Shown: piece by piece, positions 7,291 to 43,952 of the stretch
Numbering within the stretch: position 1 is the first letter of the stretch
Layout of the letters: the number at the start of each line of letters is the position of its first letter
Assembly: GCA_014879565.1 (NCBI GenBank)
Contig: JACSRW010000037.1
Location: forward strand, 1 to 49,455
Reading direction: 5' to 3'
DNA length: 49,455 nt
Source of the DNA: Chitinophagaceae bacterium
GTDB lineage: Bacteria; Bacteroidota; Bacteroidia; Chitinophagales; Chitinophagaceae
Translations under genes and position numbers: made by a program
Notes under the pieces: model-generated
Seen by the model: the letters and a program-made list of their open reading frames with translations, nothing else
What the model was told of the DNA's origin: nothing
Databases searched by the model: none

Positions 7291-7318
7291 GTTAGCAGTT
7301 AGCAGTTAGTAGTTTGAA
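7291..7318. repeat. Heptamer array GTTAGCA x3-4
   Basis: GTTAGCA, GTTAGCA, GTTAGTA, GTTTGAA follow one another in exact 7-base phase, 10 bases after the desaturase stop codon. This is one of the family of short-period arrays in the spacers of this window. Confidence 0.75.
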
Positions 7319-7330
7319 GGTAGCGGGACT

Positions 7331-7354
7331 TTCCGGGAGTGGCTTCCCCCGGAA
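7331..7354. other. Hairpin in the desaturase-agmatinase spacer
   Basis: TTCCGGG and CCCGGAA form a 7-bp stem with a 10-base loop. There is no T-run after it on either strand, so it may be a Rho-independent structure or an mRNA 3'-end stabiliser. The rest of this 173-base spacer shows a weak TAACTTGC element about 24 bases before the next ATG and nothing else clear. Confidence 0.4.
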
Positions 7355-7453
7355 GCTGCTCAGCCAGTCAGCTTATCAACCGGTAACGGGTTCAACATTT
7401 CAATCCTGGCATTCATTTTCCGCTTAACTTGCACTGTTTTTCAATTTTAACCG

Positions 7454-8497
7454 ATGGTTGACCTATCCGCCTACGACCCTAACAGTGTCAGTAATCCCAA
7501 TAACAATATTTTCGGGCTGCCCACAGACGAGGAATCTGCCCGCCTGGTCATACTACCCGTACCCTGGGAGGTAACGGTGAGTTATGGGGCCGGAACAGCC
7601 CGCGCCCCGGAAGCCATTCTAAAAGCCAGTTACCAGGTTGATCTTTTTGATCCCGAAATGCCGGATGCCTGGAAAAATGGTTTTTATATGCGGCCGGTTG
7701 ACCGGAAAGTGCTGATGAAAAGTGATTACCTGCGCAAAGAAGCGGAACTATACATTGATTATATTTCCAAGGGTGATGATGTAAATGCCAACCAGTTTAT
7801 GTGCAAAACCCTCCGGGAGGTAAACGAGGGCGGGCATTACCTGACTGAATGGATGCGAGAACAAAGCAGGGCCCTGCTGGAGCAGGGAAAACTGGTAGCC
7901 GTACTGGGCGGGGATCACAGTGTACCCCTGGGCTATATGAAATCCATCGGGGAGAAATACGGCGATTTCGGTATTCTGCAGATTGACGCCCATTGTGATC
8001 TGCGTGATACCTATGAAGGGTTTAAACATTCCCATGCCAGTATTATGTATAACGCGCTGCAGGAAGTACCCCAGTTGCAACGGGTGGTACAGGTCGGGTT
8101 GCGGGATTACAGCCAGGTGGAATGGGATTATATCGCAAACAGTAACTTTAAAGTAATCGCTTACCTTGACCGCGAAATCAAGGAACGGCAGTTTAACGGG
8201 GAAACCTGGAAACATATCGCGGAAGAAATCATCAGCCAGTTGCCCGAGCAGGTGTATATCAGTTTTGATATTGACGGCCTTGACCGTAAACTCTGTCCCC
8301 ATACCGGCACCCCGGTACCCGGTGGTTTTGAACTGGAAGAAGTCAATTTTATGCTCAAAACACTCCGGATGAGCGGCAAAAAAATCATCGGTTTTGATCT
8401 TTGTGAAGTGGGAGTGAGTGACTCCGACTGGAATGCCAATGTGGGCGCCCGGGTCCTGTTTAAGTTATGTAATCTGCTGGTTACTTCCCAAAGCTGA
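7454..8497 (+). CDS. Agmatinase/arginase-family ureohydrolase
   Basis: A 347-residue ureohydrolase with complete binuclear manganese motifs: GGDHS (His155), DAHCDLRD (Asp178, His180, Asp182) and SFDIDGLD (Asp272, Asp274). The HTGTPVPGGF segment after the last motif resembles agmatinases rather than arginases, so hydrolysis of agmatine to putrescine and urea is the best guess, with formimidoylglutamase as an alternative. An N-terminal extension of about 40 residues precedes the core. A small membrane protein gene begins 4 bases after its stop, suggesting co-transcription. No arginine decarboxylase or hut gene is nearby to settle the substrate. Confidence 0.85.
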   Translation: MVDLSAYDPNSVSNPNNNIFGLPTDEESARLVILPVPWEVTVSYGAGTARAPEAILKASYQVDLFDPEMPDAWKNGFYMRPVDRKVLMKSDYLRKEAELYIDYISKGDDVNANQFMCKTLREVNEGGHYLTEWMREQSRALLEQGKLVAVLGGDHSVPLGYMKSIGEKYGDFGILQIDAHCDLRDTYEGFKHSHASIMYNALQEVPQLQRVVQVGLRDYSQVEWDYIANSNFKVIAYLDREIKERQFNGETWKHIAEEIISQLPEQVYISFDIDGLDRKLCPHTGTPVPGGFELEEVNFMLKTLRMSGKKIIGFDLCEVGVSDSDWNANVGARVLFKLCNLLVTSQS

Positions 8498-8501
8498 ATA
8501 C

Positions 8502-9068
8502 ATGCCGGTTAATGCCGATTATATTATCAGCCTCCCCAATAAAAAGACCCGGTTATATGATATTATGGGTTGGATACTGCTTGGTCTTCATATGACGGGG
8601 TTTCTCTATATTCTTTTTACTACAACAGAAAAAGATAAATGGAGTGCTTGCGGCTATGCGCTGAGCCTGCCCCTGGTATACTTTATCCTGGAGTATTTTT
8701 TGCTTAAAAAAAAGCGGGAATTTCACGGGTTGAAATTCAGTCTGGCCACCCTGCCGGCCATCTGGTATTTCAAGTTTGACTATGTGTATATCGGACTGAT
8801 TACACTTGTACTGAGTATACTGTACTTTATCGCCCGCCGCTCATTCAGAATCTTATTTACCGGACAGTATATAATTTACCCCTCCTTTCCCGGCCGTAAA
8901 ATAAAATGGAACGAGCTCAGCAACCTGATTCTTAAAGACGGTCTGCTCACCATTGACTTCAAAAACAACAAACTAATTCAGCAGGAGATTGATGTGAATA
9001 ATGAAGTGGATGAAAAGGAGTTTAATGTTTATTGCCTTGAGAAAATAGGAAAGAAATTTGAAAGTTGA
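8502..9068 (+). CDS. Small membrane protein, PH-like tail possible
   Basis: Not recognised by family. The ATG at 8502, four bases after the previous stop, gives 188 residues; an upstream extension in frame overlaps the hydrolase gene and is unlikely to be translated. Hydrophobic helices are visible at about residues 18-42, 52-70 and 78-113, followed by a soluble C-terminal half with alternating strands (KWNELSNLILKDG, LLTIDFKNN) that resembles bacterial PH-like domains of membrane proteins. The C-terminus is rich in lysine and glutamate. The only functional hint is its coupling to the ureohydrolase gene. Confidence 0.7.
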   Translation: MPVNADYIISLPNKKTRLYDIMGWILLGLHMTGFLYILFTTTEKDKWSACGYALSLPLVYFILEYFLLKKKREFHGLKFSLATLPAIWYFKFDYVYIGLITLVLSILYFIARRSFRILFTGQYIIYPSFPGRKIKWNELSNLILKDGLLTIDFKNNKLIQQEIDVNNEVDEKEFNVYCLEKIGKKFES

Positions 9069-9093
9069 AGAAAATTTAAATTCAATACGAATC

Positions 9094-9177
9094 CCCCACT
9101 CCCCACTTACCACTCCCCACTTACCACTCCCCACTTACCACTCCCCACTTACCACTCCCCACTTACTACTTTCAACT
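9094..9177. repeat. Twelve-unit heptamer array (CCCCACT/TACCACT)
   Basis: Eighty-four bases in unbroken 7-base phase: one extra CCCCACT, then CCCCACT and TACCACT alternating four times, then CCCCACT, TACTACT and TTCAACT. Every unit ends in ACT. The last unit touches the -7 box of the radical SAM gene directly, so the array occupies the -33 region of that promoter. It has no spacers and is not a CRISPR. Confidence 0.92.
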
Positions 9178-9185
9178 TATCTTTG
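9178..9185 (+). promoter_or_regulatory. -7 box (TATCTTTG) of the radical SAM gene
   Basis: Perfect TAnnTTTG match, 6 bases before the ATG at 9192. Transcription would start at or beside the start codon. The heptamer array lies immediately upstream. Confidence 0.65.
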
Positions 9186-9191
9186 CCCCAA

Positions 9192-10493
9192 ATGTCACTG
9201 CCCCATTCCCCCTATATCCTTTACTCCGATGGTAAAGGCAATATTTTTGAAGACACCAGTCTTTATGTAACCGGCCGCAGCGGCTGGGACGCCCTTCCCG
9301 TACCGGAGGATGAATGGATTGAACTGCCGGATGGGGGTTCACTCTATGAACTGCCCGGCAGACGTGGTATTGGCATTGATGTGGAAACTGGTGAAATGCG
9401 CTTATGTGAAAAAGGATGGGCTGTCGCTGCCTTTATTCCCCCGGCACACACTGGTTTTTATATCGCCGCTTATGAAAGCGCGCCGGACGCTCCTACCCTG
9501 CCGCTTTTTTGTTATACCGCCGCAGGCTGGCACGATGATAAATTTTATGTGCCCGCGGTAAGAATTGAACCGGATATCCGGCAGGAGTGTGCCGGATATG
9601 AAGCGGAGAAAGTGCAGGCTGGCGCCATGGACCTGCTCAAACATTATCCGCATAACCGGCTGGTGGACCACCTGATGAATAACTGCGCCCTCACCTATCA
9701 TTGTCCGGCTGCCCGTAATTTTGCCCTTGGCCGCTGGGAATGCCCGGTACCGGCCTCCCCTGCCTGTAATGCCAATTGTGTGGGCTGTATTTCCCTGCAA
9801 CCGGATGAAGAACCGATCGTATCCACCCAGGACCGGCTGAGCTTTAAACCCACGGCGGAAGAAATCGTTGAATTCACCGTACCCCACCTGGAAACCGCCC
9901 CCTATCCCATCATCAGTTTCGGACAGGGCTGTGAAGGAGAACCCCTCCTGATGTGGGAAACCATCCGCGAAGCGATTATTGAGATCCGTAAACACACGAA
10001 AAAAGGGAGCATCAATATCAATACCAATGGCTCCAACCCGGATGCCGTAAAGCAACTCTGCGAAGCGGGACTCGACTCCATCCGGGTCAGCACCAATTCC
10101 GCCCGCCGGGAAATCTATATGCCGTATTACCGGCCCAATAATTACGATTTTGACGATATCATTGAAAGCCTGAAAGTAGTGACCCGCTACGGCGGCTGGA
10201 CCTCCATCAACTATTTTGTTTTTCCGGGCATGACGGATTCCGTGGCGGAATACGAGGCCTTGCGCAAACTGATCCGGGATACCGGGCTGAAAATGATCCA
10301 GTGGAGGAATTTCAATATTGACCCCGACTGGTATCTCGGCAAAATCGGGGTAACTGATACCGGGGAGTGTATGGGGGTTAAACAGCTCCAGGAACTGATC
10401 CGGGAGGAATTTCCGCATTTACGCTATGGCTATTTTAACCCGCCGATAGAACGTATCAAAGGCGATTTTGACCGGGATTTTGCCCATTTCTGA
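9192..10493 (+). CDS. Radical SAM protein with long cysteine-containing N-terminal region
   Basis: A 433-residue cytoplasmic protein. The radical SAM 4Fe-4S motif CNANCVGC (Cys192, Cys196, Cys199) comes unusually late, after about 190 residues with no recognised fold. Three more cysteines lie just before it (165, 171, 184) and could hold an auxiliary cluster. Downstream features of the radical SAM barrel are FGQGCEGEPLL (the GGE-like motif, about 236-246), SININTNGS and the DSIRVSTNSA strand. No SPASM tail is seen at the C-terminus. An in-frame TTG 9 bases upstream lies inside the promoter box, so the ATG at 9192 is preferred. Substrate unknown; a tonB-like gene and folC follow on the same strand but with their own promoters. 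Confidence 0.85.
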   Translation: MSLPHSPYILYSDGKGNIFEDTSLYVTGRSGWDALPVPEDEWIELPDGGSLYELPGRRGIGIDVETGEMRLCEKGWAVAAFIPPAHTGFYIAAYESAPDAPTLPLFCYTAAGWHDDKFYVPAVRIEPDIRQECAGYEAEKVQAGAMDLLKHYPHNRLVDHLMNNCALTYHCPAARNFALGRWECPVPASPACNANCVGCISLQPDEEPIVSTQDRLSFKPTAEEIVEFTVPHLETAPYPIISFGQGCEGEPLLMWETIREAIIEIRKHTKKGSININTNGSNPDAVKQLCEAGLDSIRVSTNSARREIYMPYYRPNNYDFDDIIESLKVVTRYGGWTSINYFVFPGMTDSVAEYEALRKLIRDTGLKMIQWRNFNIDPDWYLGKIGVTDTGECMGVKQLQELIREEFPHLRYGYFNPPIERIKGDFDRDFAHF

Positions 10494-13504: not shown

Positions 13505-13508
13505 AACG

Positions 13509-13536
13509 GTGAATAGTGAGTGGTGAATATTGAGTG
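13509..13536. repeat. Heptamer array (GTGAATA/GTGAGTG) before the NUDIX start
   Basis: GTGAATA, GTGAGTG, GTGAATA and TTGAGTG in exact 7-base phase (minus strand: CACTCAA, TATTCAC, CACTCAC, TATTCAC). It ends 4 bases before the NUDIX ATG, where the ribosome-binding region would be. Confidence 0.8.
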
Positions 13537-13580
13537 GGGTGCCGGACAACTCTTTCTGCTTTGCTTTTGCGGGGAAGCCG

Positions 13581-13622
13581 CCTTAACCTCAACCTCAGCC
13601 TTAACCTTAGCCTTATCCTCAT
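13581..13622. repeat. Hexamer array CCTYAN x7 at the DinB gene end
   Basis: CCTTAA, CCTCAA, CCTCAG, CCTTAA, CCTTAG, CCTTAT and CCTCAT in perfect 6-base phase. The last unit overlaps the stop codon of the DinB-type gene. It is the only pure hexamer array seen in the window. Confidence 0.8.
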
Positions 13623-17886: not shown

Positions 17887-18282
17887 TTATCTTAGGCAGA
17901 ATCTTTGGGTTCCCTCTTTAATTGTTGGAGAATTGAAGTTTATTAGAAATCCGACTTTCTTTTCTGCCAATCGCAAATAACTAAGTACCTGTGCCTGATA
18001 AACAGGATGTATTATTTCTGCTGCCTTAATCTCACATACAATGCGTTCTTCAACCAATACATCAATTCTTAATCCTTCATCAAATACCCTATCATCATAA
18101 ATGATGGGTAATTGAACTTGCCTCCTGAAAAAAATAGCTTTTTTGGATAATTCATAACAGAAGCAAACCTCACATATTTTTTCAAGCAAACCCGGCCCCA
18201 ATTTTTTGTGTACTTGGAATGCGGCATCCATTATTTCCCTGCAGAGACGCTCTTCTGTGTGAGTTAAAATATACATAGACAA
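17887..18282 (-). CDS. GxxExxY protein, PD-(D/E)XK-like
   Basis: A 131-residue protein of the GxxExxY family (PDDEXK_3 type), function unknown. The name-giving motif reads GLLEKIC at about residues 31-37, so the tyrosine is replaced by cysteine. The nuclease-like core is visible as LRIDVLVEERIVCEIKAAE: Asp74, then Glu and Lys of the E-x-K motif near 84-86. The gene is visibly A+T-richer than its surroundings, and octamer arrays of one family flank it in inverted orientation, both of which suggest transfer or cassette-like mobility. No partner gene and no clear promoter box were found. Confidence 0.85.
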   Translation of the reverse strand: MSMYILTHTEERLCREIMDAAFQVHKKLGPGLLEKICEVCFCYELSKKAIFFRRQVQLPIIYDDRVFDEGLRIDVLVEERIVCEIKAAEIIHPVYQAQVLSYLRLAEKKVGFLINFNSPTIKEGTQRFCLR

Positions 18283-18361: not shown

Positions 18362-18410
18362 CCTTCCCGCTTTCCCGCCTCCCCCATCTTCCCGTTTACC
18401 CGTTTACCAT
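18362..18410 (-). repeat. Octamer array CGGGAARN (inverted), right flank of the GxxExxY gene
   Basis: Read on the minus strand: ATGGTAAA, CGGGTAAA, CGGGAAGA, a 9-base insert, CGGGAAAG and CGGGAAGG. CGGGAAGA and CGGGAAGG are identical to units of the left array, and the near-identical CGGGTAAA/CGGGTAAG pair also matches. The left array runs on the plus strand, so the two form imperfect inverted flanks around about 450 bases. Confidence 0.75.
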
Positions 18411-18549: not shown

Positions 18550-19761
18550 ATGCGCAGCTCCCTTATTTTTCTGATCCTCAGTACTCTGGCAAGTGTCTCT
18601 TTGGCACAGCCTTCTCCCGGTCCCGGGCGGGGTGGGGCTAATTTTTTCTCCTTTATTGAATACCAGAAAAGCTTTCCCCGGCCTGGTGAAGCGCTTGAAA
18701 GGAAGGAGGATACATTACGCAAACAGTTCGAAGCCCAAAAACTGGCCTGGCCGGCCCGTTACCTCTATATCCGTTCATTTAAATACGACAGCCAGCTCGA
18801 AGTATGGGTAAAAAATGAAAGGAGTGAACCTTTCCGTCTTTTTAAAACTTATAAAGTTTGTGCGCTGGCCGGCTCTCTGGGACCCAAGCGGATGCAGGGT
18901 GATTACCAGGTGCCGGAAGGTTTTTACTATATCAATGAATTCAATCCCAAAAGCAATTATTATCTCTCCCTTGGGCTGAACTACCCCAATGCCTCCGATA
19001 AACTGCTGAGTGATTCACTTAAGCCGGGCAGCGAAATTTATATACACGGCAGTTGTGTAACGGTTGGCTGTATCCCCATTACCGACCAGCAGATTGATGA
19101 ACTGTATATTCTTGCGGCCCATGCCAAGGACCAGGGACAGGATTTTATTCCGGTTCATATTTTTCCTATCCGGTACAATGTGGACAAGAGCGTGAAGTAC
19201 CTGGAAAGCCTGGCCAAAGATGATCCGGAATTAAAACGTTTTGCAGAAAGACTGGAAGACGCATTTGACTACTTTGAGAAATACCACCAGTTGCCGGTGG
19301 TCATGATCAGCCCCAAAGGGGATTACCTGATTAATGATGCCGCTCCCAAAAAAACGATCAAACCGCTCAACACGGAAACAGCAAAAGCCAGTGTAATGAA
19401 ACCACCAGCCGCACACCGGTACCGCAACCTGGAGCAGGTGGCAGATGCCGTACACCAGTGGCCGCAGTTTCCCGGAGGCGGTGAGGCTTTTATGAAATAC
19501 CTCGACAAACTTGGCCATGAAATGGCCTCTGAATTACCCAGGGGCATCAGCAAAGTATTTGTACAGGTAGAATTTGTGGTGGATACCGATGGGGTACCGG
19601 TAAACTTTAAAATACTGAAAGGGCTCAAAGACGCCGATGACTTTAACGACGAACTGATCAGCCGCCTCGAAAAAATGGGAACCTGGAAACCAGCCCTGCT
19701 GAACGATAAAGCCGTTGCCAAAAAAATGATCCAGACGATTACGGTAACAGCCGCTCATTAG
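18550..19761 (+). CDS. Exported L,D-transpeptidase with a TonB-like C-terminal domain
   Basis: A 403-residue exported protein. The start at 18550 gives a good signal peptide (cleavage expected near residue 19, SLAQ). Residues about 70-210 form a YkuD-type L,D-transpeptidase domain with IYIHGSCVTVGCIPITD, where His166 and Cys174 are the expected catalytic residues; such enzymes cross-link peptidoglycan or attach proteins to it. After a linker (about 265-295), residues about 304-401 resemble a TonB C-terminal domain: QFPGGGEAFMKYL, KVFVQVEFVVDTDG and MGTWKPAL. That combination is unusual. The second domain may bind a periplasmic or outer-membrane partner. The gene stands alone and faces hppD. 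Confidence 0.88.
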   Translation: MRSSLIFLILSTLASVSLAQPSPGPGRGGANFFSFIEYQKSFPRPGEALERKEDTLRKQFEAQKLAWPARYLYIRSFKYDSQLEVWVKNERSEPFRLFKTYKVCALAGSLGPKRMQGDYQVPEGFYYINEFNPKSNYYLSLGLNYPNASDKLLSDSLKPGSEIYIHGSCVTVGCIPITDQQIDELYILAAHAKDQGQDFIPVHIFPIRYNVDKSVKYLESLAKDDPELKRFAERLEDAFDYFEKYHQLPVVMISPKGDYLINDAAPKKTIKPLNTETAKASVMKPPAAHRYRNLEQVADAVHQWPQFPGGGEAFMKYLDKLGHEMASELPRGISKVFVQVEFVVDTDGVPVNFKILKGLKDADDFNDELISRLEKMGTWKPALLNDKAVAKKMIQTITVTAAH

Positions 19762-19900: not shown

Positions 19901-19949
19901 CTCCCGTCTCCCGTCTCCTGTCTCCCGGCTCCCATCTCCCGGCTCCCGC
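19901..19949. repeat. Heptamer array CTCCCGT x7 in the spacer before the hppD stop
   Basis: CTCCCGT, CTCCCGT, CTCCTGT, CTCCCGG, CTCCCAT, CTCCCGG and CTCCCGC in exact 7-base phase. It ends one base before the hppD stop codon, between two convergent genes. No separate terminator was found in this 189-base spacer. Confidence 0.85.
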
Positions 19950-19950
19950 C

Positions 19951-21084
19951 TCACAAATTCCCCCTCAACTCCTGCTCTCTTTCAATAGCCTCAAACAGCG
20001 CTTTGAAATTCCCCTTACCGAAGCTTTTGGCGCCTTTACGCTGGATAATTTCAAAGAATAAGGTTGGCCTGTCTTCCACCGGTTTGCTGAATAACTGCAG
20101 CAGGTAACCTTCATTATCCCGGTCAACCAGGATCCCGAGTTCCTTGAGGGGTTCAAGGTCTTCATCAATATGTCCGACCCGGCTAAGCAGGTCATCGTAA
20201 TACGTTGTAGGCACTTTCAGAAATTCAACCCCGCGGTTCCGGAGGGCGGTGACCGTTTTAACAATATCATTTGTGGCGAGTGCCACGTGCTGGCAGCCTT
20301 CTCCATTGTAAAAGTCAAGGTATTCCTCCACCTGGCTTTTTTTCTTGCCTTCCGCTGGTTCATTGATGGGGAATTTGACAAACCCGTTGCCGCTGCTCAT
20401 TACTTTACTCATAAGCGCGGAATATTCAGTGGAGATATCCTCATCATCAAAAGAAAGGATATTTTTAAAACCCATGACATCCTCATAAAATTTTACCCAG
20501 GGATTCATCTGGTTCCAGCCTACATTCCCCACGCAATGATCCACATACAGTAAACCGGTATCTTCCGGCTGATAAAAGGGATTAGACCAGGGTTTATACC
20601 CCGGCATAAAGGCGCCGTTGTAATTCTTTCTTTCAATAAAGAGGTGAACGGTATCGCCGTATGTATGAATACCGCTCATGACCAGTTCGCCATGTTCATC
20701 ACTGAGCCGCAGGGGCTCCATATAAGAACGTGCGCCTCTTTTAGTAGTTTCCTCCCAGGCGCTGACCGCATCCGGCACCCGCAGGGAAAGAGCCTTTACC
20801 CCGTCGCCGTGTTTATAAATATGATCGGCAATCGGATTACCGGTCCTCAGCGGGGTGGTTAATACAAAAGTGAGTTTGTGCTGTCGTACAGCATAACTGG
20901 CGCGGTCTTTAATACCGGTTTCAGGTCCGGCATACGCGAGTGCCTGAAAACCGAAGGCGCTCATATAGAAATGGGCTGCCTGTTTGGCATTACCTACATA
21001 GAATTCTACATAATCCGTGCCCTCCAGGGGCAGGAAATCGGGACTGACAGACTGGTTCTTTTCGCTGGTTTTTGTAGCTGACAT
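19951..21084 (-). CDS. hppD: 4-Hydroxyphenylpyruvate dioxygenase
   Basis: A 377-residue non-heme iron dioxygenase that converts 4-hydroxyphenylpyruvate to homogentisate in tyrosine breakdown. It has two vicinal-oxygen-chelate domains. The iron ligands are in VDHCVGNV (His, about residue 181), CQHVALAT (His, about 264) and LFFEIIQRKG (Glu, about 343). The C-terminal tail KSFGKGNFKALFEAIEREQ is typical. The 72 bases upstream contain a small hairpin (GCCTT/AAGGC at 21094-21106) next to the start and no TAnnTTTG box. The nearest one is at 21257-21264, so the transcript may begin there and include a short ORF. Confidence 0.96.
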   Translation of the reverse strand: MSATKTSEKNQSVSPDFLPLEGTDYVEFYVGNAKQAAHFYMSAFGFQALAYAGPETGIKDRASYAVRQHKLTFVLTTPLRTGNPIADHIYKHGDGVKALSLRVPDAVSAWEETTKRGARSYMEPLRLSDEHGELVMSGIHTYGDTVHLFIERKNYNGAFMPGYKPWSNPFYQPEDTGLLYVDHCVGNVGWNQMNPWVKFYEDVMGFKNILSFDDEDISTEYSALMSKVMSSGNGFVKFPINEPAEGKKKSQVEEYLDFYNGEGCQHVALATNDIVKTVTALRNRGVEFLKVPTTYYDDLLSRVGHIDEDLEPLKELGILVDRDNEGYLLQLFSKPVEDRPTLFFEIIQRKGAKSFGKGNFKALFEAIEREQELRGNL

Positions 21085-28113: not shown

Positions 28114-28189
28114 GTATGAATAAAACGTCAAGAACCAAATAAAAAGAACCAGGGCCCCCTTTTTATAAGAATCGCAAGGTTGAAAATTG

Positions 28190-28320
28190 GCTCTTTTGTT
28201 CTTGGTTCTTGGCTCTTGGTTCTTGGCTCTTGGTTCTTCGGTTCTTGGTTCTTGGCTCTTTGGTTCTTGGCTCTTGGTTCTTCGGTTCTTGGCTCTTTGG
28301 TTCTTGACTCTTGGTTCCTC
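28190..28320. repeat. Heptamer array GTTCTTG/GCTCTTG upstream of purE
   Basis: About 18 units of GTTCTTG, GCTCTTG, GTTCTTC or GCTCTTT. Most are in 7-base phase, with a single extra G or T inserted after some units. The array ends 10 bases before the purE -7 box, so it covers the -33 region. On the minus strand it translates to a repetitive NQEPRTK-like peptide that is not believed to be made. Confidence 0.9.
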
Positions 28321-28330
28321 AAAAAATCAG

Positions 28331-28338
28331 TAGTTTAG
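28331..28338 (+). promoter_or_regulatory. Probable -7 box (TAGTTTAG) of purE
   Basis: Seven of eight positions match TAnnTTTG, 18 bases before the ATG. The same TAnnTTAG variant precedes the AGMO-like gene at 39681. Confidence 0.45.
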
Positions 28339-28356
28339 CAGCCTCAAAAAAACAAA

Positions 28357-31793: not shown

Positions 31794-34205
31794 TTATTTG
31801 ATTTTATTCCATTGTTGCTGCAGCATCCGGATAAAGTACCCCCCCACCACACTTCTGGCCTGAAAGCCTGTCTGTCTGCCGGTTGTGGTTTCATGCCAGT
31901 CCGTCATCGGTACCCTGTCAGGCGTTTCTGCTGCAAAATTAACCAGGGGGCTTATGAATAATGAAAAAGTTTCCATGTCATCCGCCAGGCAGGCAGTCCA
32001 GCAAATCCAGTCCGATTTGGTATAGCTCCGCCGGCTGTCTAATGGCAAACCGTATTTCTGTTGTTTCCCCAGGTAAAAGGTAATTTCTTTTTTGTATACA
32101 GAAGGGGGGAACAGATCCAGATCCAGTAATTTATCCCAAACCAGGTTATATTTCTGACTCCATGTTTTGCCCTTTTCAAAAGTGAGGGCGTAATGGTCTC
32201 CGGCATCAGCCATTTCCATCCATCGGCTGGCATAATCGCGGGCAATAGCTTTACATCTGTCTGCCTCTTCTGTTAGTCCCAGCCCCGCCGCCATCTGTGC
32301 ATAAGAGCCGATTCCTATGATTGCTTTCAGGGAGAGATTGGCATTCCGGGCCAGATGACCGGCAAAATCATCCGTACATAACTGGTTGACCGGATCCAAT
32401 CCGTCCTTCACAAGAAACTCCACCCACTGACTGAGTATCTTCCAGTGTTTACGGGCAAAATCAAATTTTTTTTCCGCCTTACAGATGGCAGCGGTCAGTA
32501 TTACCATATTTCCGGCCTCTTCCACCGGCATATCTTCCGGATAGGTCTGCCCGTTGGCCAGCGGATAGGTACCGAGATCATGTGCCGGAAAGGGTTTGCT
32601 CCATTTACCCGATTCACTGTAATACATAATGGGTTCTACCATCCCTTTCAGCAGATCGGGATTATAAAGCAGGCTTAAAGGAGCAGAGGGATAGGTAACA
32701 TCCACGGTCCAGATGGAACCATTGCTGAAATTCTCCTTTTGCGGAAAAAGGATTTCATTCGCCGGCCCTCTGACCAGTTTATGCGCGGCCAGTGACTGAC
32801 GGTAAGCCAGCACACAAAGCCGGGCATATGCTTCACCACCGGCTTTTTCGGCATCTGCAAAAAGTTTACGGTCAAAATTATCACAGCGGTCAAGCACTGC
32901 TGTTGACTCCCGGTACGCCGCTGCAAGCAGGGATTCCATAACGGGGTATTTTTTCTTCCACCAGGGCTGCAGATTTTTTCCGAAATACTGGATAGAAAAA
33001 AGATCGTCGTAGGCCAGCAGGATGGTACCCGGCATGGGCAAATCGCCGGTCTTACCAAAATCAACTCTTGTTTCTGTAAAACCGGACAGTTTGTACCCGG
33101 GCAAAGTCGGTTCCGGGCTGAGTTTATACTTGCCGTTATTCTCCACCGCCAGGTACACATAACCCCAGTCAATCCGGACATCATCCCCCTTTGTTTTCAA
33201 CACCGGCTGTTCTCCCGTGCCGGTTTTAATAAACTGCAGATTACCCGCACGCCCCTTTGTTTTTTTAAGCGGCACCGGTTTTTTATTCCTGGCCAGATCG
33301 TCTGACTGCAGGAAATACAATGACACATCGTGTTTCTTTTCATCCAGTGACTGAACTGTGAAATGAATATAACTGACCGGTCTTGAGAGCAGATCCGGAT
33401 CTGTTGCCAGTAAAGGAGAAACAAAATCACAGGCCAGGAAAACAGGTCCGCACTGAAAACCGTATTTTGTCTTGGTGGCGGTCATTTCCACCCCGTTCTG
33501 TATGGCAGGAATTATACCCGGCAGCAATTTTTTTGCTGCCAGCCCTGCATCGAGCCAGGCATAACCACCGGTATTGGTACAATGTATGGCCAGCAGGTTT
33601 TTCCCCTTCCTGAGTAAAGAACGGAATCTGTCTGCTAACGTAAAATACTTCAGGTCACTGGTGTAACAATCTGTACAGGAAAAAATCTGCTGGCCGTTCA
33701 GGTATACTTCGGCATCATCATCGTGCCTTAATTGCAGCAGCAACTGATCTGTAACTTCTTCAGCCAGCTCAAAGGTTCGTCTCACCCAAATTTCATTCCC
33801 TTTCCACGCTGTGGCGGCATTATTTTCCCATCCGCTGCCAAAAGGCATATTTCCGTTTTTCCATTTCGCATCATCAAAATCTTCCTTCATCCAGTTTTTA
33901 CCGGGTTTGGATTCAATATAACGGCAGTCCACAGGCATTTCTGCACCAGAGGCTACTATAGTTTTTACCGGATAAGCCGGCTGACCCAGAAAATTATACA
34001 ACTTCCCGTCCACACGCAGCAAACCCAGCAGGGAATGTTCTGCCCCGGTCCAGTGCCGGGTGACCGACTCATTCAGCTTATCTGAAACACTCCAGATACT
34101 AAAATAGGGATCATGGGTTATTAAGGGAAAGGCTGGCGCTTTGGTAACCTGTGCAGAAACCAGCTGGCTCATAACCAGCATTACAAACAAAAAACACGTT
34201 CTCAT
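31794..34205 (-). CDS. Exported GtaA-like glutaminase-family protein (DUF4964/5127/4965/1793)
   Basis: An 803-residue exported protein; a signal peptide ends near residue 18 (LVSAQ). The likely domain order is a short DUF4964-like start (ITHDPYFSIWSVSDKLNES, about 28-46), a galactose-binding-like beta-sandwich insert (about 105-215: DFDDAKWKNGNMPFG, LRHDDDAEVYLNG), then the DUF5127/DUF4965/DUF1793 parts with an (alpha/alpha)6-type end (about 455-800: SYTKSDWICWTACLAD, VPMTDWHETTTG). Fungal GtaA is a secreted glutaminase, but most bacterial members are untested and may be glycosidases. It lies between GH127 and the dehydrogenase in the same run, separated from GH127 by a heptamer array. Confidence 0.82.
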   Translation of the reverse strand: MRTCFLFVMLVMSQLVSAQVTKAPAFPLITHDPYFSIWSVSDKLNESVTRHWTGAEHSLLGLLRVDGKLYNFLGQPAYPVKTIVASGAEMPVDCRYIESKPGKNWMKEDFDDAKWKNGNMPFGSGWENNAATAWKGNEIWVRRTFELAEEVTDQLLLQLRHDDDAEVYLNGQQIFSCTDCYTSDLKYFTLADRFRSLLRKGKNLLAIHCTNTGGYAWLDAGLAAKKLLPGIIPAIQNGVEMTATKTKYGFQCGPVFLACDFVSPLLATDPDLLSRPVSYIHFTVQSLDEKKHDVSLYFLQSDDLARNKKPVPLKKTKGRAGNLQFIKTGTGEQPVLKTKGDDVRIDWGYVYLAVENNGKYKLSPEPTLPGYKLSGFTETRVDFGKTGDLPMPGTILLAYDDLFSIQYFGKNLQPWWKKKYPVMESLLAAAYRESTAVLDRCDNFDRKLFADAEKAGGEAYARLCVLAYRQSLAAHKLVRGPANEILFPQKENFSNGSIWTVDVTYPSAPLSLLYNPDLLKGMVEPIMYYSESGKWSKPFPAHDLGTYPLANGQTYPEDMPVEEAGNMVILTAAICKAEKKFDFARKHWKILSQWVEFLVKDGLDPVNQLCTDDFAGHLARNANLSLKAIIGIGSYAQMAAGLGLTEEADRCKAIARDYASRWMEMADAGDHYALTFEKGKTWSQKYNLVWDKLLDLDLFPPSVYKKEITFYLGKQQKYGLPLDSRRSYTKSDWICWTACLADDMETFSLFISPLVNFAAETPDRVPMTDWHETTTGRQTGFQARSVVGGYFIRMLQQQWNKIK

Positions 34206-34224
34206 AACACCCAGTTTAATATAC

Positions 34225-34287
34225 CCTTACTCATTATTTATTACTCATTATTCATTACTCATTATTCATTACTCTCCACTCACCCCT
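34225..34287. repeat. Nine-unit heptamer array (CATTACT/CATTATT)
   Basis: CCTTACT, CATTATT, TATTACT, CATTATT, CATTACT, CATTATT, CATTACT, CTCCACT and CACCCCT in exact 7-base phase. It begins 20 bases before the ATG of the glutaminase-like gene and ends 3 bases from the GH127 stop codon. It fills almost the whole spacer between these two genes. Confidence 0.9.
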
Positions 34288-34290
34288 CCC

Positions 34291-36252
34291 CTAATAATTC
34301 AGCTTCACATCCGCAATTTTCACCGGCAGCCATACCTGCATTTCATTTTTACCCCGGTTGGCCCAGGCATAATAAGGAATAGCCGTAATTTCTTTTTTCT
34401 CAGTGTACAGCGATTCACCGTCCCCGCTCACCTGGATAACTGGTACCAGGGCCTTTAATACTTTTACCGGTTCATCCAGTATTTTGGAGTCAGACAACCG
34501 GAATGCTGTTTTGTCGGGGATCACCAGGTTCCAGGCCTTTCCATTATTATCCGCACCTTCCACACAATATACCAGGGGACCCCGTTGCAGGGCAATACGT
34601 CCCTGGTTTTGTTTTATTTCATTCCGGGCCTGTATCATTTTTACTTCCATTGGCAGTTCCAATTCCACCACATCTCCTTTTTTCCAGGTTTGTGCAACAA
34701 GCATGTAACCGTCTTTCACCGTATACGTAACTTTTTTCCCGTTAACCGAAATAAGGGGCATGGCGGCAGATCCGTATTTTGTTGTGTAAAGTCCCCCGGG
34801 TACGATTTCATTGCTACACCAGCCGGGCAGCCGGAGGTACAGATTGAAATTTGATTTTTTGGCCGGCTCAATCACCAGTTTTACATATCCGTCCCAGGGA
34901 TAATTTGTCTCCTGGCGGATGGTTACCGGAACTTGGTTCACCTGTAATGCAACATTGCTGCAGGTATACAGATTTACAAATACCGAGTTTTCCGCTTCCG
35001 CATATACATAGTTCCCGAGAGAGGCTACCAGCCGGGCGATATTTGCCGGGCAGCAGGCTGTACCAAACCATTCACGGCGCTGGTGTTGTCCGCGGGATGC
35101 CAGCGGATTGCCATAGAAGAAACGGTCGCCACTGAGGCTGAGACCGTCAAGCGCCCCGTTATATAAACTTCTTTCCAGTACATCCATATACATCGCCTGT
35201 CCGGTCAGCGCGTTCATTCTTTGGTTCCAGAAAACCATTCCAACAGAAGCACAGGTTTCGCAATACGCATGTTCATTGGGCAGGTCATAATCCACACTGA
35301 AGCCTTCATTGCTTCCGGCCGATCCGATACCGCCTGTGATATACATATTCCGGTGTACCACATCCTCCCATACTGTTTTCATAGCCCGGATATATCCCGA
35401 ATCCCCGGTATGTGCCGCTACATCAGCAGCCCCGGTATACATATACATGGCCCGAACCGCATGCCCGGTTATCTGTGTCTGTTCTTTAACCGGCAGCAGA
35501 TCCTGTGCATAGGCGGTATCTTTCCAGTCAGTCCAGGTATACCCTTTGGCCAGTTTGCGTCCCCGCTGATCCAGCAGCCAGTCGGCCAGCCGCAGATAGC
35601 GTTGCTCACCGGTAACATCAAAGAGTTTCACCAGTGCCAGTTCCAGTTCCTGGTGCCCGGTAACCCAATTCCGTTTACCAGGGCCAAAGAGGCTGTCAAA
35701 ATGGTCAGCCCAGCGTATGCATACCTCTAACAGCTTTCTTTTACCGGTAACATTGTAATACGCCACCCCAGCTTCAAGCATATGCCCGGCATTATAATCT
35801 TCGTGCATGCTCATATCGGTATAACGGTCTTTCAGCCCTTTGAGTGTATACCAGGTATTCAGGTAACCATCGGGCAACTGGGCAGCCGCAATTTTGTCAA
35901 TCCATTCATCACATTTTTTTTCCAACGTGGTATCGGGATGCGTTTTCAGCGCGTACGCCATTGCCTCAAGCGCCTTAAATACATCGCTGTCATCATAAAA
36001 AATACCTTCATGTTCTTCCCCCAGCTTCCGGGCTACTTTCTCAAAATTCCGGATACGTGCCGTGGCGGTTTCGGTCTGGTAGATACAGGCAGCCAGCGTG
36101 GCTGTAGCGACTTTATCTATTTTGGGTTTCCAGAATCCACCAGTAATATCCACCCGGGAGAAATTAACAAACCGGTATTTCCCCCCACTCATTTGCGCCG
36201 GAAGAATAGTATGAATCAGCAGGGTGATAAACAGAATCAATACTTTATTCAT
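34291..36252 (-). CDS. GH127 beta-L-arabinofuranosidase (HypBA1-like)
   Basis: A 653-residue exported glycoside hydrolase of family 127 (DUF1680), with a signal peptide ending near residue 20. The catalytic set known from Bifidobacterium HypBA1 is intact. Glu316 (in GSNEGF) is the acid/base position, Glu332 and Cys334 (in YCETC) are zinc ligands, and Cys400-Cys401 (in GTACCPAN) are the nucleophile and third zinc cysteine. HypBA1 removes beta-L-arabinofuranose from hydroxyproline-linked arabino-oligosaccharides of plant cell-wall glycoproteins. Other GH127 members act on different sugars, so the substrate is inferred from the hydroxyproline-processing neighbours. It starts 10 bases after the MBL gene stop. 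Confidence 0.92.
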   Translation of the reverse strand: MNKVLILFITLLIHTILPAQMSGGKYRFVNFSRVDITGGFWKPKIDKVATATLAACIYQTETATARIRNFEKVARKLGEEHEGIFYDDSDVFKALEAMAYALKTHPDTTLEKKCDEWIDKIAAAQLPDGYLNTWYTLKGLKDRYTDMSMHEDYNAGHMLEAGVAYYNVTGKRKLLEVCIRWADHFDSLFGPGKRNWVTGHQELELALVKLFDVTGEQRYLRLADWLLDQRGRKLAKGYTWTDWKDTAYAQDLLPVKEQTQITGHAVRAMYMYTGAADVAAHTGDSGYIRAMKTVWEDVVHRNMYITGGIGSAGSNEGFSVDYDLPNEHAYCETCASVGMVFWNQRMNALTGQAMYMDVLERSLYNGALDGLSLSGDRFFYGNPLASRGQHQRREWFGTACCPANIARLVASLGNYVYAEAENSVFVNLYTCSNVALQVNQVPVTIRQETNYPWDGYVKLVIEPAKKSNFNLYLRLPGWCSNEIVPGGLYTTKYGSAAMPLISVNGKKVTYTVKDGYMLVAQTWKKGDVVELELPMEVKMIQARNEIKQNQGRIALQRGPLVYCVEGADNNGKAWNLVIPDKTAFRLSDSKILDEPVKVLKALVPVIQVSGDGESLYTEKKEITAIPYYAWANRGKNEMQVWLPVKIADVKLNY

Positions 36253-38598: not shown

Positions 38599-38621
38599 CT
38601 GTTACCCATTGCCTATAACAC
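38599..38621. repeat. Short heptamer trace (GGTAACA/GGCAATG) at the epimerase stop
   Basis: On the minus strand TGTTATA, GGCAATG and GGTAACA follow one another in 7-base phase. GGCAATG and GGTAACA are the same heptamers as in the array at 43911-43952, 5 kb away. The trace covers the epimerase stop codon. Confidence 0.55.
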
Positions 38622-39623
38622 CTGGAACCCATACGCATACGGGTCATCATCCTTATCAATCCATATCGTATTGTAGCCATAAATCCTGGCCCACCCTTCC
38701 ACCGAAGGCCGGATAGCGGGCAGGCCATTGATTTGAAGTTCCTCCTCTATTCGGCCTGTAAATGTGCTGCCAATGATACTTTCATGTATAAACAGTTCCC
38801 CTTTCTTAAGTTTGCCCTTTGCATACCATTGTGCCATACGCGCACTTGTACCTGTACCGCAGGGTGACCGGTCAATGGCTTTATCTCCGTAAAAAACAGC
38901 GTTGCGTGCCGTGGAAACAGGGTTCAGCACGGCTCCGGTCCAGAGGATATGTGAACAGCCGCGAATGGTGGCATCTTCCGGATGAATAAAGGAATAACGG
39001 GCATTGATGTCTTTTCTTAATTCGCGGGCCCATGCAATGAGTTTATCTGCTGTATACTGTTCAATTCCCCGGAAATTCTTCTGGACATCCACAATTGCGT
39101 AAAAATTTCCGCCGTAAGCCACATCCACAACCAGTTCTCCCAGTTCCGGACATTCAGCTGTCAGTTCTGCACTATGGAGAAATGAAGGCACATTCGTTAG
39201 CCTGACTGATTTCACTTTTCCGGTTTCCTGTTCCTGTTCATACCGGATCTTAACCAGGCCAGCCGGAGCTTCCATCCTGATTTCACCGGGAATACGGGGC
39301 TGTACCAGCCCCTCTTCCACCGCAATGGTGACAGTGCCGATCGTTCCGTGACCACACATAGGCAGACAGCCGCTGGTTTCTATAAATAGAACCGCAACAT
39401 CATTGGCAGGATCGGCAGGCGGATAAAGGATACTTCCGCTCATCATATCATGCCCCCGGGGTTCAAACATGAGACCGGTTCGTATCCAGTCATACACCCG
39501 CAGGAAATGCTGTCGCTTTTCACTCATGTTCTTCCCCTCCAGCAAGGGCCCTCCTTCCTTTACCAGCCTGACCGGATTCCCGCAGGTATGCGCATCAATA
39601 CAGGTGAATAGGTGTTTTGACAT
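38613..39623 (-). CDS. 4-Hydroxyproline 2-epimerase (proline racemase family)
   Basis: A 336-residue cytoplasmic enzyme of the proline racemase family. Both catalytic cysteines are present: Cys90 in MCGHGTIG and Cys255 in DRSPCGTGTSA. This makes it an epimerase or racemase and not the related trans-3-hydroxyproline dehydratase, which has threonine in the second position. The N-terminal CIDAHTCGNPVRLV and FEPRGHDMMSGS are typical of 4-hydroxyproline 2-epimerases, which convert trans-4-hydroxy-L-proline to the cis-D form. It is the first gene of the minus-strand run that ends with the dehydrogenase. The start at 39621-39623 is preferred over in-frame upstream codons. No clear -7 box was found. 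Confidence 0.9.
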   Translation of the reverse strand: MSKHLFTCIDAHTCGNPVRLVKEGGPLLEGKNMSEKRQHFLRVYDWIRTGLMFEPRGHDMMSGSILYPPADPANDVAVLFIETSGCLPMCGHGTIGTVTIAVEEGLVQPRIPGEIRMEAPAGLVKIRYEQEQETGKVKSVRLTNVPSFLHSAELTAECPELGELVVDVAYGGNFYAIVDVQKNFRGIEQYTADKLIAWARELRKDINARYSFIHPEDATIRGCSHILWTGAVLNPVSTARNAVFYGDKAIDRSPCGTGTSARMAQWYAKGKLKKGELFIHESIIGSTFTGRIEEELQINGLPAIRPSVEGWARIYGYNTIWIDKDDDPYAYGFQVL

Positions 39624-39642: not shown

Positions 39643-39677
39643 CTAACCATTGCCCATTACACAATATCCATTCTCTT
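39643..39677. repeat. Degenerate heptamer array next to the AGMO-like promoter
   Basis: CTAACCA, TTGCCCA, TTACACA, ATATCCA and TTCTCTT in 7-base phase; four of the five units end in CA. It ends 3 bases before a probable -7 box. On the minus strand it includes GGCAATG and GGTTAG, relatives of the arrays at 43911 and 7291. Confidence 0.5.
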
Positions 39678-41031: not shown

Positions 41032-41973
41032 TTATTTTTCTGCTCCGGCCTGTTTGACCATCAGCGCCTGAATTTGCTTCATAGTCCCCTCCATGCCATC
41101 AGGACTGCCATCGAGGAAAATGACATTCCCTTTGCCATATTCCGCGAAATTTTTAATGGCTTCTGTCCACATACTGAAAAGGATCACATTGGTATCAAGA
41201 TTGGCCTGTTTCATTTGTTCGGCCGCTTCGGTCATACCCCGGGCAACTTCCTGACGGAAGAGTGCCACCCCCTGTCCGCGGAGACGGGCTGCTTCTTTTT
41301 CCGCTTCGGCAGAAATTTTAATCGCATTACCTTCTGCTTCGGCTGATTTGGTTTTGGTAATCAGCAAGGCCTGTCCCTCATTCTCCGCTGCGGCCTTCAG
41401 GTTATTGGAGGCCACCACCTTACTCATGGAATCAAGAATCATCTTATCAAAAGTGATATCATTGATCTGGAGGTCCTGCAGGTGATACCCCCAGGTTTCA
41501 AGCGTATGATCAATTTCAGCCTTTACATATTCCACGATTTCCCGGCGAAGTCCAAGGATTTCTGCCTGTTTTTTGGTTGCAACAAAAGAGCGGATATTCC
41601 CTTCAATTGTCCGGATAAGGGCCTGCATGAGGTCTTTATCGGCAATAAACTTAAATGCCACTTTTTTTATCGTTTCCTCTTCCGCGTTCTGAACGGAATA
41701 GAGCAGCATACTTTTAAAATACACATTTGCCTGGTCAGCCGTAACAGCCTGGAACTCGAGTTCCACCGAACGGTTCTGAATGGACACTTTTTTATACACC
41801 TGTTCAATCAGGGGTATTTTAAACCGGAGGCCGGGTGTGGCAATACGCTGGTATTTACCAAACATGGTAATAACGCCGATATAGCCCTGGTTGATGGTAA
41901 AAAGTCCGCTGAAAAAAATGAAAAGGATCACGAGAATCCACCAGTTGGAAGAAAGCCAGTTTGCGAAATCCAT
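41032..41973 (-). CDS. SPFH/band 7 domain membrane protein
   Basis: A 313-residue stomatin/prohibitin-type protein: one N-terminal transmembrane helix (about residues 10-27), an SPFH domain (about 28-200: NQGYIGVITMFGKYQRIATPG, VTADQANVYFK) and a long alanine/glutamate-rich coiled coil (about 200-270: AEAEGNAIKISAEAEKEAARL). Such proteins form large ring or raft-like assemblies in the membrane and often protect or position proteases and other enzymes. There is no NfeD or FtsH neighbour. The gene ends convergently with the AGMO-like gene; its terminator lies inside that gene. Confidence 0.92.
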   Translation of the reverse strand: MDFANWLSSNWWILVILFIFFSGLFTINQGYIGVITMFGKYQRIATPGLRFKIPLIEQVYKKVSIQNRSVELEFQAVTADQANVYFKSMLLYSVQNAEEETIKKVAFKFIADKDLMQALIRTIEGNIRSFVATKKQAEILGLRREIVEYVKAEIDHTLETWGYHLQDLQINDITFDKMILDSMSKVVASNNLKAAAENEGQALLITKTKSAEAEGNAIKISAEAEKEAARLRGQGVALFRQEVARGMTEAAEQMKQANLDTNVILFSMWTEAIKNFAEYGKGNVIFLDGSPDGMEGTMKQIQALMVKQAGAEK

Positions 41974-42001
41974 AATGCAAGTTTTAGGTTAAGGAAAATA
42001 G

Positions 42002-43249: not shown

Positions 43250-43267
43250 GTTCTTTTGAATGGGTAC

Positions 43268-43275
43268 CGAAGATA
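43268..43275 (-). promoter_or_regulatory. Possible -7 box (TATCTTCG) of pepT
   Basis: Seven of eight positions match TAnnTTTG on the minus strand, 18 bases before the pepT ATG. Confidence 0.35.
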
Positions 43276-43324
43276 CGACGAAATAAGGGCCGGATTTCTG
43301 CTTGCGGGAAAGAAAGATTTTGCC

Positions 43325-43333
43325 TACCTTTTG
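43325..43333 (+). promoter_or_regulatory. Possible -7 box (TACCTTTTG) of the membrane protein gene
   Basis: Resembles TAnnTTTG with one extra T, 21 bases before the ATG at 43355. Confidence 0.35.
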
Positions 43334-43354
43334 ACAAACCAAAAAACCAACAAC

Positions 43355-43915
43355 ATGAAAAAATGGCTTATTGGCACCCTGGTCGGTGGCATCATTCTTT
43401 TTGCATGGCAATTTCTTTCCTGGACGGTTTTGCAATTTCATGAAGCCGAAGCCAGGTACACCCCTGCGCAGGACAGTATTCTGCAGTACCTGTCATCCCA
43501 GTTTAAGGAAAACGGCACCTATATGCTGCCCACCACAGCGCCGGGCGCTTCTGCCGAAGAAATGGAGGCCCTGGGAAGTAAAATGCATGGCAAACCCTGG
43601 GCCACGCTTACCTATCGTACCAGTTACGATCATGGCATGACCCGGCCTATGATCCGGGGCTTTCTGGTTGACCTTTTTCTTGTATTCTGCCTGATATATA
43701 TTCTCACCCGGGGTGGCATACCGCCAGCCATGCGGGTCTTCGCCGGTTCGGTGGCAGTGGGGTTACTGAGTTTTCTGTACGGCCCCTACACCCAGCATAA
43801 CTGGTTCCAGACCCCGACTGCAGATTTGCACGGACACCTGATTGATGCACTGGTTGCCTGGGGGCTGGTCGGCCTATGGCTGGGATGGTGGTTGAATCGG
43901 GGTAAGAGTAGGTAA
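43355..43915 (+). CDS. Small membrane protein of unknown family
   Basis: Not recognised. 186 residues with an N-terminal transmembrane helix (about 5-23), a periplasmic part of about 75 residues (about 28-100, including QDSILQYLSSQF and YMLPTTAPGASAEEME), then three helices at about 102-120, 126-144 and 162-180. The start at 43355 is chosen for its promoter and because the longer frame would run through the pepT gene. The last codons overlap the first unit of a heptamer array. A bidirectional terminator follows. Confidence 0.75.
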   Translation: MKKWLIGTLVGGIILFAWQFLSWTVLQFHEAEARYTPAQDSILQYLSSQFKENGTYMLPTTAPGASAEEMEALGSKMHGKPWATLTYRTSYDHGMTRPMIRGFLVDLFLVFCLIYILTRGGIPPAMRVFAGSVAVGLLSFLYGPYTQHNWFQTPTADLHGHLIDALVAWGLVGLWLGWWLNRGKSR

Positions 43916-43952
43916 CAGGCAATAAGCAATGGGCAATTGGCAATTGGCAATG
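43911..43952. repeat. Six-unit heptamer array (GGCAATN)
   Basis: GGTAACA, GGCAATA, AGCAATG, GGCAATT, GGCAATT and GGCAATG in exact 7-base phase. The first unit contains the stop codon of the membrane protein gene. It ends 3 bases before a terminator. Confidence 0.9.

Follow-up and report, generated by a model that had tools for sequence, protein, structure and literature searches.

Heptamer tandem arrays of changing sequence and nearly constant polarity at gene edges in a Chitinophagaceae genome

Heptamer arrays in the window and across related genomes

Seven intergenic spacers in a 49,455-nt stretch of a Chitinophagaceae bacterium (assembly GCA_014879565.1, contig JACSRW010000037.1, the whole of which is hereafter the window) carry degenerate tandem arrays of a 7-nt unit, among them the spacer between a TolC-family gene and purE (Table 1). 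Across four species of the genus such heptamer arrays lie close to gene edges and nearly always run with their purine-rich strand from the gene into the spacer, while the repeated word itself changes. All seven window arrays named in the initial annotation were found by Tandem Repeats Finder, and at period 7 or 14 each stands above 1000 dinucleotide shuffles of the spacer that holds it (smallest possible P = 0.001). Six reach P = 0.001 at lag 7, and the seventh, in spacer 13505–13618, does so at lag 14 (P = 0.03 at lag 7). Other lags tested (5, 6, 8, 9, and 16) fall below 0.05 only in that spacer (lag 6, P = 0.001, from its hexamer array; lag 5, P = 0.028) and in spacer 28114–28356 (lag 8, P = 0.010). 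The hexamer and octamer relatives reported alongside the arrays were likewise recovered. Two further traces, near 38.6 and 39.6 kb, stand in part: both show a lag-7 signal, but it is weak, and at 38.6 kb lag 6 does as well. They may be decayed arrays, since orthologous spacers of relatives carry repeats, namely CCACTCA/CCCCACT-type full heptamer arrays at 39.6 kb in three related species (genomes G047, G012, and G004) and 8/9-mer repeats, seen by eye, at 38.6 kb. Two C-rich array spacers are nearly unfolded (34191–34290 at 0.0 and 9069–9182 at −0.4 kcal/mol), and no known RNA family is found in the window at gathering thresholds.

Table 1. Tandem arrays and adjoining features of the window.
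Feature	Position	Strand	Remarks
GTTAGCA heptamer array	7290–7314	+	9 nt past stop of + gene 6210–7280; purine-rich strand directed into spacer; Tandem Repeats Finder, shuffles
CCCCACT/TACCACT array, 14-mer alternation	9094–9170	+	pyrimidine strand reads toward start of + gene 9183–10493
Octamer relative CCTGTCAA	12916–12950	+	Tandem Repeats Finder; lag 8 P = 0.004
GTGAATA/GTGAGTG array	13508–13537	+	left spacer edge; Tandem Repeats Finder: 14-mer, 2.1 copies
Hexamer array CCTTAA/CCTTAG	13581–13619	+	right edge of spacer holding GTGAATA/GTGAGTG array; Tandem Repeats Finder
Octamer relative CCCGTTTA	18391–18408	+	Tandem Repeats Finder; lag 8 P = 0.008
CTCCCGT/CTCCCGG array	19901–19952	+	extends to stop side of − gene 19951–21084; GGG tracts on complement
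Copy of dispersed ~84-nt element (CAAGAACC... arm, core, ...GGTTCTTGG arm)	28129–28212	+	
GTTCTTG/GCTCTTG array	28187–28317	+	after ~84-nt element copy, between TolC-family gene and purE
ATTACTC/ATTATTC array	34227–34274	+	3′ edge of − gene 34291–36252
Weak trace	38599–38623	+	lag 7 P = 0.020; lag 6 equally good, P = 0.014
Weak trace	39643–39675	+	lag 7 P = 0.024
GGCAATT/GGCAATG array	43918–43953	+	past stop of + gene ending at 43915
Strong intrinsic-terminator-like hairpin, 22-bp stem, 4-nt loop	43952–43999	+	adjoins GGCAATT/GGCAATG array; folding

The preference for period 7 extends well beyond the window. Runs of at least 8 matches at a given lag were counted in spacers and in shuffles, and the initial annotation's expectation that random sequence would not favor period 7 in this way is borne out in 849 kb of the genome that holds the window (G000; 3.43 Mb, 44 contigs, 99.5% complete; the window is contig C33). 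The BshC protein of the window has three relatives in a collection of named genomes, all from Chitinophagaceae (two of them Lacibacter) and 53–55% identical, which would place the host in Bacteroidota near that family. The G000 spacers hold 50 lag-7 runs (1.6 in shuffles), 65 at lag 14 (2.1), and 27 at lag 21 (2.4), compared with 4, 6, and 0 at lags 5, 6, and 9 (2.6, 2.2, and 1.6 in shuffles). Lags 8 and 16 give 17 (2.0) and 23 (2.1) runs, a period-8/16 class that is smaller than that of period 7 but real. Lag-7 runs are concentrated between genes, as the suggested intergenic enrichment implied (75 per 100 kb of spacer and 2.8 per 100 kb of coding sequence), and 22 remain in the first 400 kb when the window is left out. 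Related species of the genus show the same excess at lag 7 (31 runs vs. 0.9 in G047; 12 vs. 0.3 in G012) and, like G000, at lags 14 and 21; G012 also has 6 lag-8 runs against 0.2. In a control genome of the same genus, G039 (200 kb; G+C 38% vs. 49%), no excess appears at lags 7 and 14 (2 vs. 0.7 at lag 7), and its lag-21 excess (8 vs. 1.0) is unrelated, arising from two loci with 21-nt repeats.

Samples from the relatives comprised 360 kb of G047, 104 kb of G012, and 20 kb of G004, with one genome per species, so that array variation described here is variation between species. The G000 stretches came from large contigs already known to contain matches, and the G012 and G004 stretches and part of G047 were picked for holding matches or for matching the window. 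Because this choice was guided by known matches, array densities may be inflated, while polarity and the shape of the period spectrum should suffer less. Genes were called with a home-made hexamer-score caller rather than taken from curated annotation, and at least one small open reading frame was missed: 17887–18282 (minus strand, 131 aa), a member of the PDDEXK_3 family (PF13366, E = 7.6e-37) within a long spacer with octamer repeats. Elsewhere in G000, five spacers (C1:36711–36933, C1:169876–169992, C1:177310–177543, C28:36891–37015, and C28:197092–197140) form one similarity group, and the C1:177310 spacer holds octamer repeats (GGGGTTGA/GAAGTTGA) belonging to the period-8/16 class. Three of the G000 contigs C18, C19, C25, and C9 end inside GTTCTTG-type matches and the fourth 20 nt beyond one, so that these arrays may break the assembly and may be longer in reality.

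Position and polarity at gene edges

Heptamer arrays are tied to gene edges. After removal of arrays shorter than 20 nt, with G+C below 20%, with lag-7 identity below 50%, or lying mostly within called genes, 82 remained from four species, of which 71 lie within 50 nt of a gene. For the 62/82 arrays whose spacer leaves enough room, the median distance to a gene is 16 nt, compared with 31 nt under random placement (P = 0.0005). Convergent gene pairs have arrays in their spacers most often (22/93), codirectional pairs less so (41/468), and divergent pairs rarely (5/168). Clear-sided arrays overall favor stops (48) over starts (13), and 26 of the 35 in codirectional spacers are found at a stop and not ahead of a start.

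Arrays also keep a nearly constant orientation relative to the adjacent gene. Orientation was counted in the 61 arrays that have a clear side and a gene no more than 50 nt away; the window array at 9094–9170, which nearly fills its spacer and is therefore ambiguous as to side, was among those dropped. The purine-rich strand points from the gene into the spacer in 57 of these 61, at stops (45:3, or 45/48) as at starts (12:1, or 12/13) and independently of gene strand. The proportion is similar when counted per spacer (50/54) or in spacers with a single array (43/47), and without the clear-side filter 62 arrays point inward and 9 outward (40:6, 11:3, 9:0, and 2:0). An initial count with looser filters over 449 kb gave 30:3 close to edges and 3:4 further off. 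This strand-independent polarity, absent from the initial annotation, is the most informative property of the arrays.

Seen as RNA, the strand that would be transcribed from spacer into gene is rich in C and T and poor in G (mean C 0.34, T 0.34, A 0.22, and G 0.10). C exceeds G in 56/61 entering strands, G is at most 15% in 50/61, C at least 25% in 45/61, and both hold in 40/61, with 1.9 pyrimidine-C (YC) steps per 10 nt. Entering strands are nearly devoid of ATG/GTG (0–0.56 per 100 nt vs. 5.9–8.8 on the leaving strand; TTG not counted) and of Shine–Dalgarno-like runs (0–0.45 vs. 2.6–3.5); on the leaving strand ATG/GTG, GGAG-like runs, and stop codons are all more common. About 5–6 of the 61 arrays break the composition trend, two of them GTTCTTG words that are pyrimidine-rich but do not have C in excess of G.

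Several simple explanations were rejected. General composition of gene edges does not produce the polarity, as array-free edges in three clade samples are unbiased at stops (46.7–47.5%) and only slightly tilted at starts (56.6–63.9%). Orientation driven by transcription or R-loops predicts a purine-rich sense strand at both gene ends, but at starts the reverse is seen. Nor do arrays seem to grow directionally from the edge of the gene, as regularity does not differ between their proximal and distal halves (26 arrays, P = 0.45).

Words, orthologous spacers, and dispersed elements

The repeated words are many but not private to their spacers. We found 38 consensus words in the 82 arrays, most often GAGTAAT (17/82), GAAGTAC (6), AGTTAGT (6), and GGGAGAC (5), with a median array length of 30 nt and 9/82 arrays of at least 70 nt. 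The initial annotation gave each spacer its own sequence, yet the same words come back elsewhere in the genome, in sister species, and in further families of the phylum. GAGTAAT arrays occur in 60/248 genomes of the order (up to 3 mismatches in 24) and, phylum-wide, in 27/395 genomes and 18/170 genera (up to 2 mismatches), many with one or few matches. The GAGTAAT search pattern reads identically backwards, making its built-in control uninformative, and the same-composition control word GGATTAA was found in 1/395 genomes. Its mirror image AATTAGG forms arrays in about 26/395 (a hand count from control columns), a difference at identical composition that implies direction-specific favored words. 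One genome from another family of the class (G375) has both a GTTCTTG-type and a GAGTTAT array. Certain heptamers are thus favored, and strong arrays are patchy.

Orthologous spacers show different words at the same edge. In spacer 34191–34290 the window carries ATTACTC/ATTATTC at one edge, and G004 and G012 carry CCACTCA-type arrays at that edge in the same orientation, with a short CACTCAC trace placed in the same way in G047. Likewise, one edge of spacer 13505–13618 holds GTGAATA in the window and GTGCCGG in G047. Between the TolC-family gene and purE, the window has GTTCTTG in a spacer of 243 nt, while both relatives' spacers are short, with a short AGTTAGT-like array in G004 and almost nothing in G047. 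Other spacers with and without an array measure 206 vs. 55 nt and 149/269 vs. 47 nt. A longer array usually goes with a longer spacer, which suggests growth by insertion. Elsewhere in the window, the gene at 18550–19761, whose YafK/DpaA-like match falls short of the curated cut-off, has the reverse orientation at the same place in G047, with neighbor order unchanged.

Some arrays are parts of larger dispersed elements. An element of ~135 nt with a GAGTAAT arm and an ATTACTC arm (family A) is 75–81% alike between loci. When 42 genomes of the genus were searched with one such element, G000, G004, G012, and G047 each gave 53–74 matches and G008 a single one, while the other 37 gave none. Being common in only 4/42, family A is a trait of few species; of the other 38 genomes, G039 alone was sampled for other words. 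An inner CCCTCCG...CGGAGGG-like stem is visible by eye in 9/15 family A loci, where outer stem pairs change together. A strict version of the inner motif has 8 matches in the G000 sample, 6 in convergent spacers and 5 of those with detected arrays, and none in 360 kb of G047. A second unit of ~84 nt with AAGAACC and GGTTCTT arms (family D) has 36 aligned copies in G000, often in tandem every ~101 nt, among them the copy at 28129–28212. Both families look like terminator- or palindrome-like units with arrays attached. That the two arms are copies of each other was rejected, as the two arms of one element match no better than arms taken from different elements (permutation P = 0.40, 11 elements). 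A reverse-complement partner is present in the same spacer for 16/38 arrays (14/38 under a stricter null) and significant in none of the remaining 22, and in two spacers GGGAGAC arms face CACTCAC arms rather than their own complement. Since arms are not copies and 22/38 arrays have no complementary partner, pairing does not explain the polarity.

Y1 transposases match in 4/4 array species and also in 14/38 genomes without notable family A arrays. Among ten Y1 stretches, five have a heptamer array 1.2–2.7 kb from the Y1 gene, although two of the five (L167 and L169), with bounds drawn to include a known array, are apparently one locus in G012 and G004. In four stretches from G012, G004, and G047 (L165, L166, L168, and L170), Y1 genes resembling those of repetitive extragenic palindrome-associated tyrosine transposases (RAYTs) adjoin palindromes of their own, AACCCC...GGGGTT or GCACCCC...GGGGTGAG. 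Those of L170 stand in tandem series, a system that resembles repetitive extragenic palindromes (REPs) and is distinct from the heptamer arrays. An origin of the arrays from RAYT/REP systems was rejected on the difference, seen by eye over the ten stretches, between the arrays and the palindromes directly flanking Y1 genes, and on the presence of Y1 in the 14 other genomes.

Explanations and known systems

We favor, at about even chances, a reading of the arrays as polarized gene-edge heptamer microsatellites that slippage grows and selection sorts by position and polarity. It starts from period, placement, polarity, differing words at the same places, and longer spacers with longer arrays, all observed directly, and the geometry has an independent precedent in PMC4692102. 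Replication slippage and out-of-register exchange would proceed preferentially by 7 nt and extend short runs of particular words; words may spread between spacers, with loci persisting as wording and copy number turn over. Selection would tolerate or keep arrays only outside genes and rarely between divergent genes, matching the observed pattern, and their orientation would be kept almost only where the RNA running from spacer to gene is C/T-rich, G-poor, and nearly without ATG/GTG and Shine–Dalgarno-like runs. Arrays behave as neutral-to-mildly-useful filler under a strict orientation filter, unlike fixed-sequence binding sites.

Several observations weigh against this reading. We infer slippage as the generator from one genome per species, and loss of mismatch repair as its trigger was rejected, as MutS1 matches in 42/42 genomes of the genus, 34 above the cut-off. 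Avoidance of start signals readily accounts for polarity at starts; for stops, with an equally strict rule, it is no obvious explanation. The recurrence of words across families (GAGTAAT in 27/395 genomes, the control word in 1/395) is not expected from blind slippage. Despite GAGTAAT matches in these genomes, 120 kb of G267 and 48 kb of G511/G608 show no period-7 excess, and polarity outside the clade is a thin 6 inward to 1 outward. Finally, 26 automatic ortholog comparisons, in which a few G000 spacers were matched against two relatives each, gave arrays in both members in 2, in G000 only in 2, in the relative only in 3, and in neither in 19, with no significant correlation of presence at the threshold used (Fisher's P = 0.15). 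In the 5 one-sided cases, by eye and post hoc, the array-less partner holds related-looking motifs.

Ranked second, and rather unlikely, is that arrays act as modular Rho-utilization (rut)-like sites on transcripts invading a gene, namely antisense read-through at 3′ ends and read-through from upstream at 5′ ends. Rho would be loaded by RNA that is rich in C and T, poor in G, and marked by a YC step roughly every 5 nt, and would stop the invading transcript; since the exact word would be irrelevant, turnover would be allowed. Such a word-independent signal suits changing words at fixed places and would explain both gene sides. It also agrees with the composition of entering strands (low G and high C together in 40/61), with the frequency of arrays between convergent genes and their rarity between divergent ones, with the almost complete lack of folding in window spacers 34191–34290 and 9069–9182, and with the presence of Rho in the genome. 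Known rut sites are about 70–80 nt of RNA with C in excess of G and little structure. The arrays resemble them in composition (56/61) and, as judged from window and sample spacers only, in structure, but most are short (median 30 nt; 9/82 reach 70 nt), 26/35 clear-sided arrays in codirectional spacers sit at a stop and not ahead of a start, and GTTCTTG and a few other words break the trend. A quite unlikely alternative takes paired GAGTAAT...ATTACTC arms as extensions of intrinsic bidirectional terminators between convergent genes, with polarity being that of hairpin arms. This would fit the double-arm elements common in four species, with an inner stem in 9/15 loci and outer pairs changing together, the convergent location of 6/8 inner-motif matches (5 with arrays), and the complementary partners of 16/38 arrays (14/38 under the stricter null). 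Yet 22/38 arrays have no partner, polarity is still 43/47 in single-array spacers, arms of one element resemble each other no more than they do others (11 elements, P = 0.40), GGGAGAC is opposed by CACTCAC in two spacers, and the inner motif is absent from 360 kb of G047. Loss of the SbcCD hairpin nuclease was rejected as a cause: SbcD (TIGR00619) is below the cut-off in all 42 genomes of the genus (weak matches in 25/42; 8/14 of a control set pass) and thus cannot single out the array species.

Two further explanations appear less probable still. Arrays could be putative multi-copy binding sites for a nucleic-acid-binding protein that steps by 7 nt, by analogy with MacGregor's proposal for TAACTGA repeats. 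Recurrence of particular words across families and a period that stays fixed as words vary would agree with this, but 38 words in 82 arrays and differing words at orthologous loci are ill-suited to one protein, and we consider it improbable. Very improbable, in our estimate, is that arrays are the ends of REP-like elements or miniature inverted-repeat transposable elements moved by a transposase. The 36 aligned and often tandem copies of the ~84-nt GTTCTTG element, the 75–81% likeness of family A elements, the occurrence of Y1 in 4/4 array species, and arrays 1.2–2.7 kb from Y1 in 5/10 stretches are in keeping with mobility; however, Y1 is also found in 14/38 genomes without notable family A arrays, the palindromes directly flanking Y1 differ in several of the ten stretches, and words change in place at orthologous loci.

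Among known systems, REP/RAYT palindromes are dispersed, extragenic, and able to pair into hairpins. The palindromes directly beside the Y1 genes of the ten stretches are other sequences than the arrays. Prokaryote-wide treatments of tandem repeats are those of Huang and Mrazek (2014, PMC4060949) and of a 2025 survey (PMC12699852), whose passages concerned are without the present pattern. The arrays resemble cyanobacterial heptameric short tandemly repeated repetitive sequences (STRRs), as first proposed for them, in a unit of exactly 7 nt beyond chance and beyond other lengths and in lying in spacers rather than coding sequence. The accompanying supposition that Bacteroidota had no such description falls, as MacGregor (2015, PMC4679880) reported the heptamer TAACTGA from Beggiatoaceae, from cyanobacteria, and from five Bacteroidetes genomes, some with other heptamers mixed in. 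Those are likewise direct repeats in spacers, with TAACTGA arrays in one species that are not evident in its relative, but TAACTGA on either strand is not among our 38 words, and in the main Beggiatoaceae genome the repeats described lie mostly just upstream of starts, whereas ours lie mostly past stops (48 vs. 13). Calothrix STRRs, compared here through their citation in PMC4692102 only, comprise three different tandem heptamers in one genome, and are thus alike in having several heptamers per genome and different in lineage.

The closest likeness is to the G-rich heptamers GGGAATC of Xanthomonas and GGGGA(C/T)T of Nostoc, which according to Rehm et al. (2015, PMC4692102) sit for the most part no more than 50 nt past a stop, on the coding strand, or before a start, on the noncoding strand. 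Our arrays follow the same edge and strand rule (71/82 within 50 nt; purine strand 45:3 and 12:1; C above G in 56/61). Those repeats, like ours, are underrepresented between divergent genes, but they are preferred between codirectional ones (PMC4692102), whereas ours are most frequent between convergent genes and come from a third phylum. There, each organism has one type of G-quadruplex-forming motif; our arrays use dozens of words, and GGG tracts are absent from most of them. Such a quadruplex is built from four units with a G-tract each, as might be supplied by GGG-bearing words alone, and the commonest word, GAGTAAT (17/82), has no G-tract. The sections concerned discuss G-quadruplexes and identify no regulatory role, relay the idea that a 7-nt preference reflects the DNA segment contacted by polymerase, and present the heptamer excess of bacteria as noted for years without an established cause (PMC4692102). 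It is an unlikely extension that several phyla keep a word-independent fence at gene edges, with entering RNA that is C/T-rich, G-poor, and almost without start signals as its conserved property, most likely to load Rho against invading antisense or read-through transcripts, while words churn by slippage; if so, cyanobacterial STRRs, the Xanthomonas and Nostoc repeats, and the present arrays would form a single class to which G-quadruplexes are incidental.

Heptamer repeats in Bacteroidetes and gene-edge geometry for G-quadruplex-forming heptamers are thus already known. In the open-access literature searched we found no description of array polarity in Bacteroidota, and as far as that literature shows, what is new is polarity across a large and changing set of words mostly without G-tracts, in a third phylum, with differing words at orthologous places. 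The genome thereby tells apart a changing word and a constant geometry, which earlier examples left entangled. As the geometry holds for words without G-tracts, the G-quadruplex explanation is not needed, and it becomes directly testable whether transcription that enters gene edges, or a filter on the orientation of slippage products, is at work.

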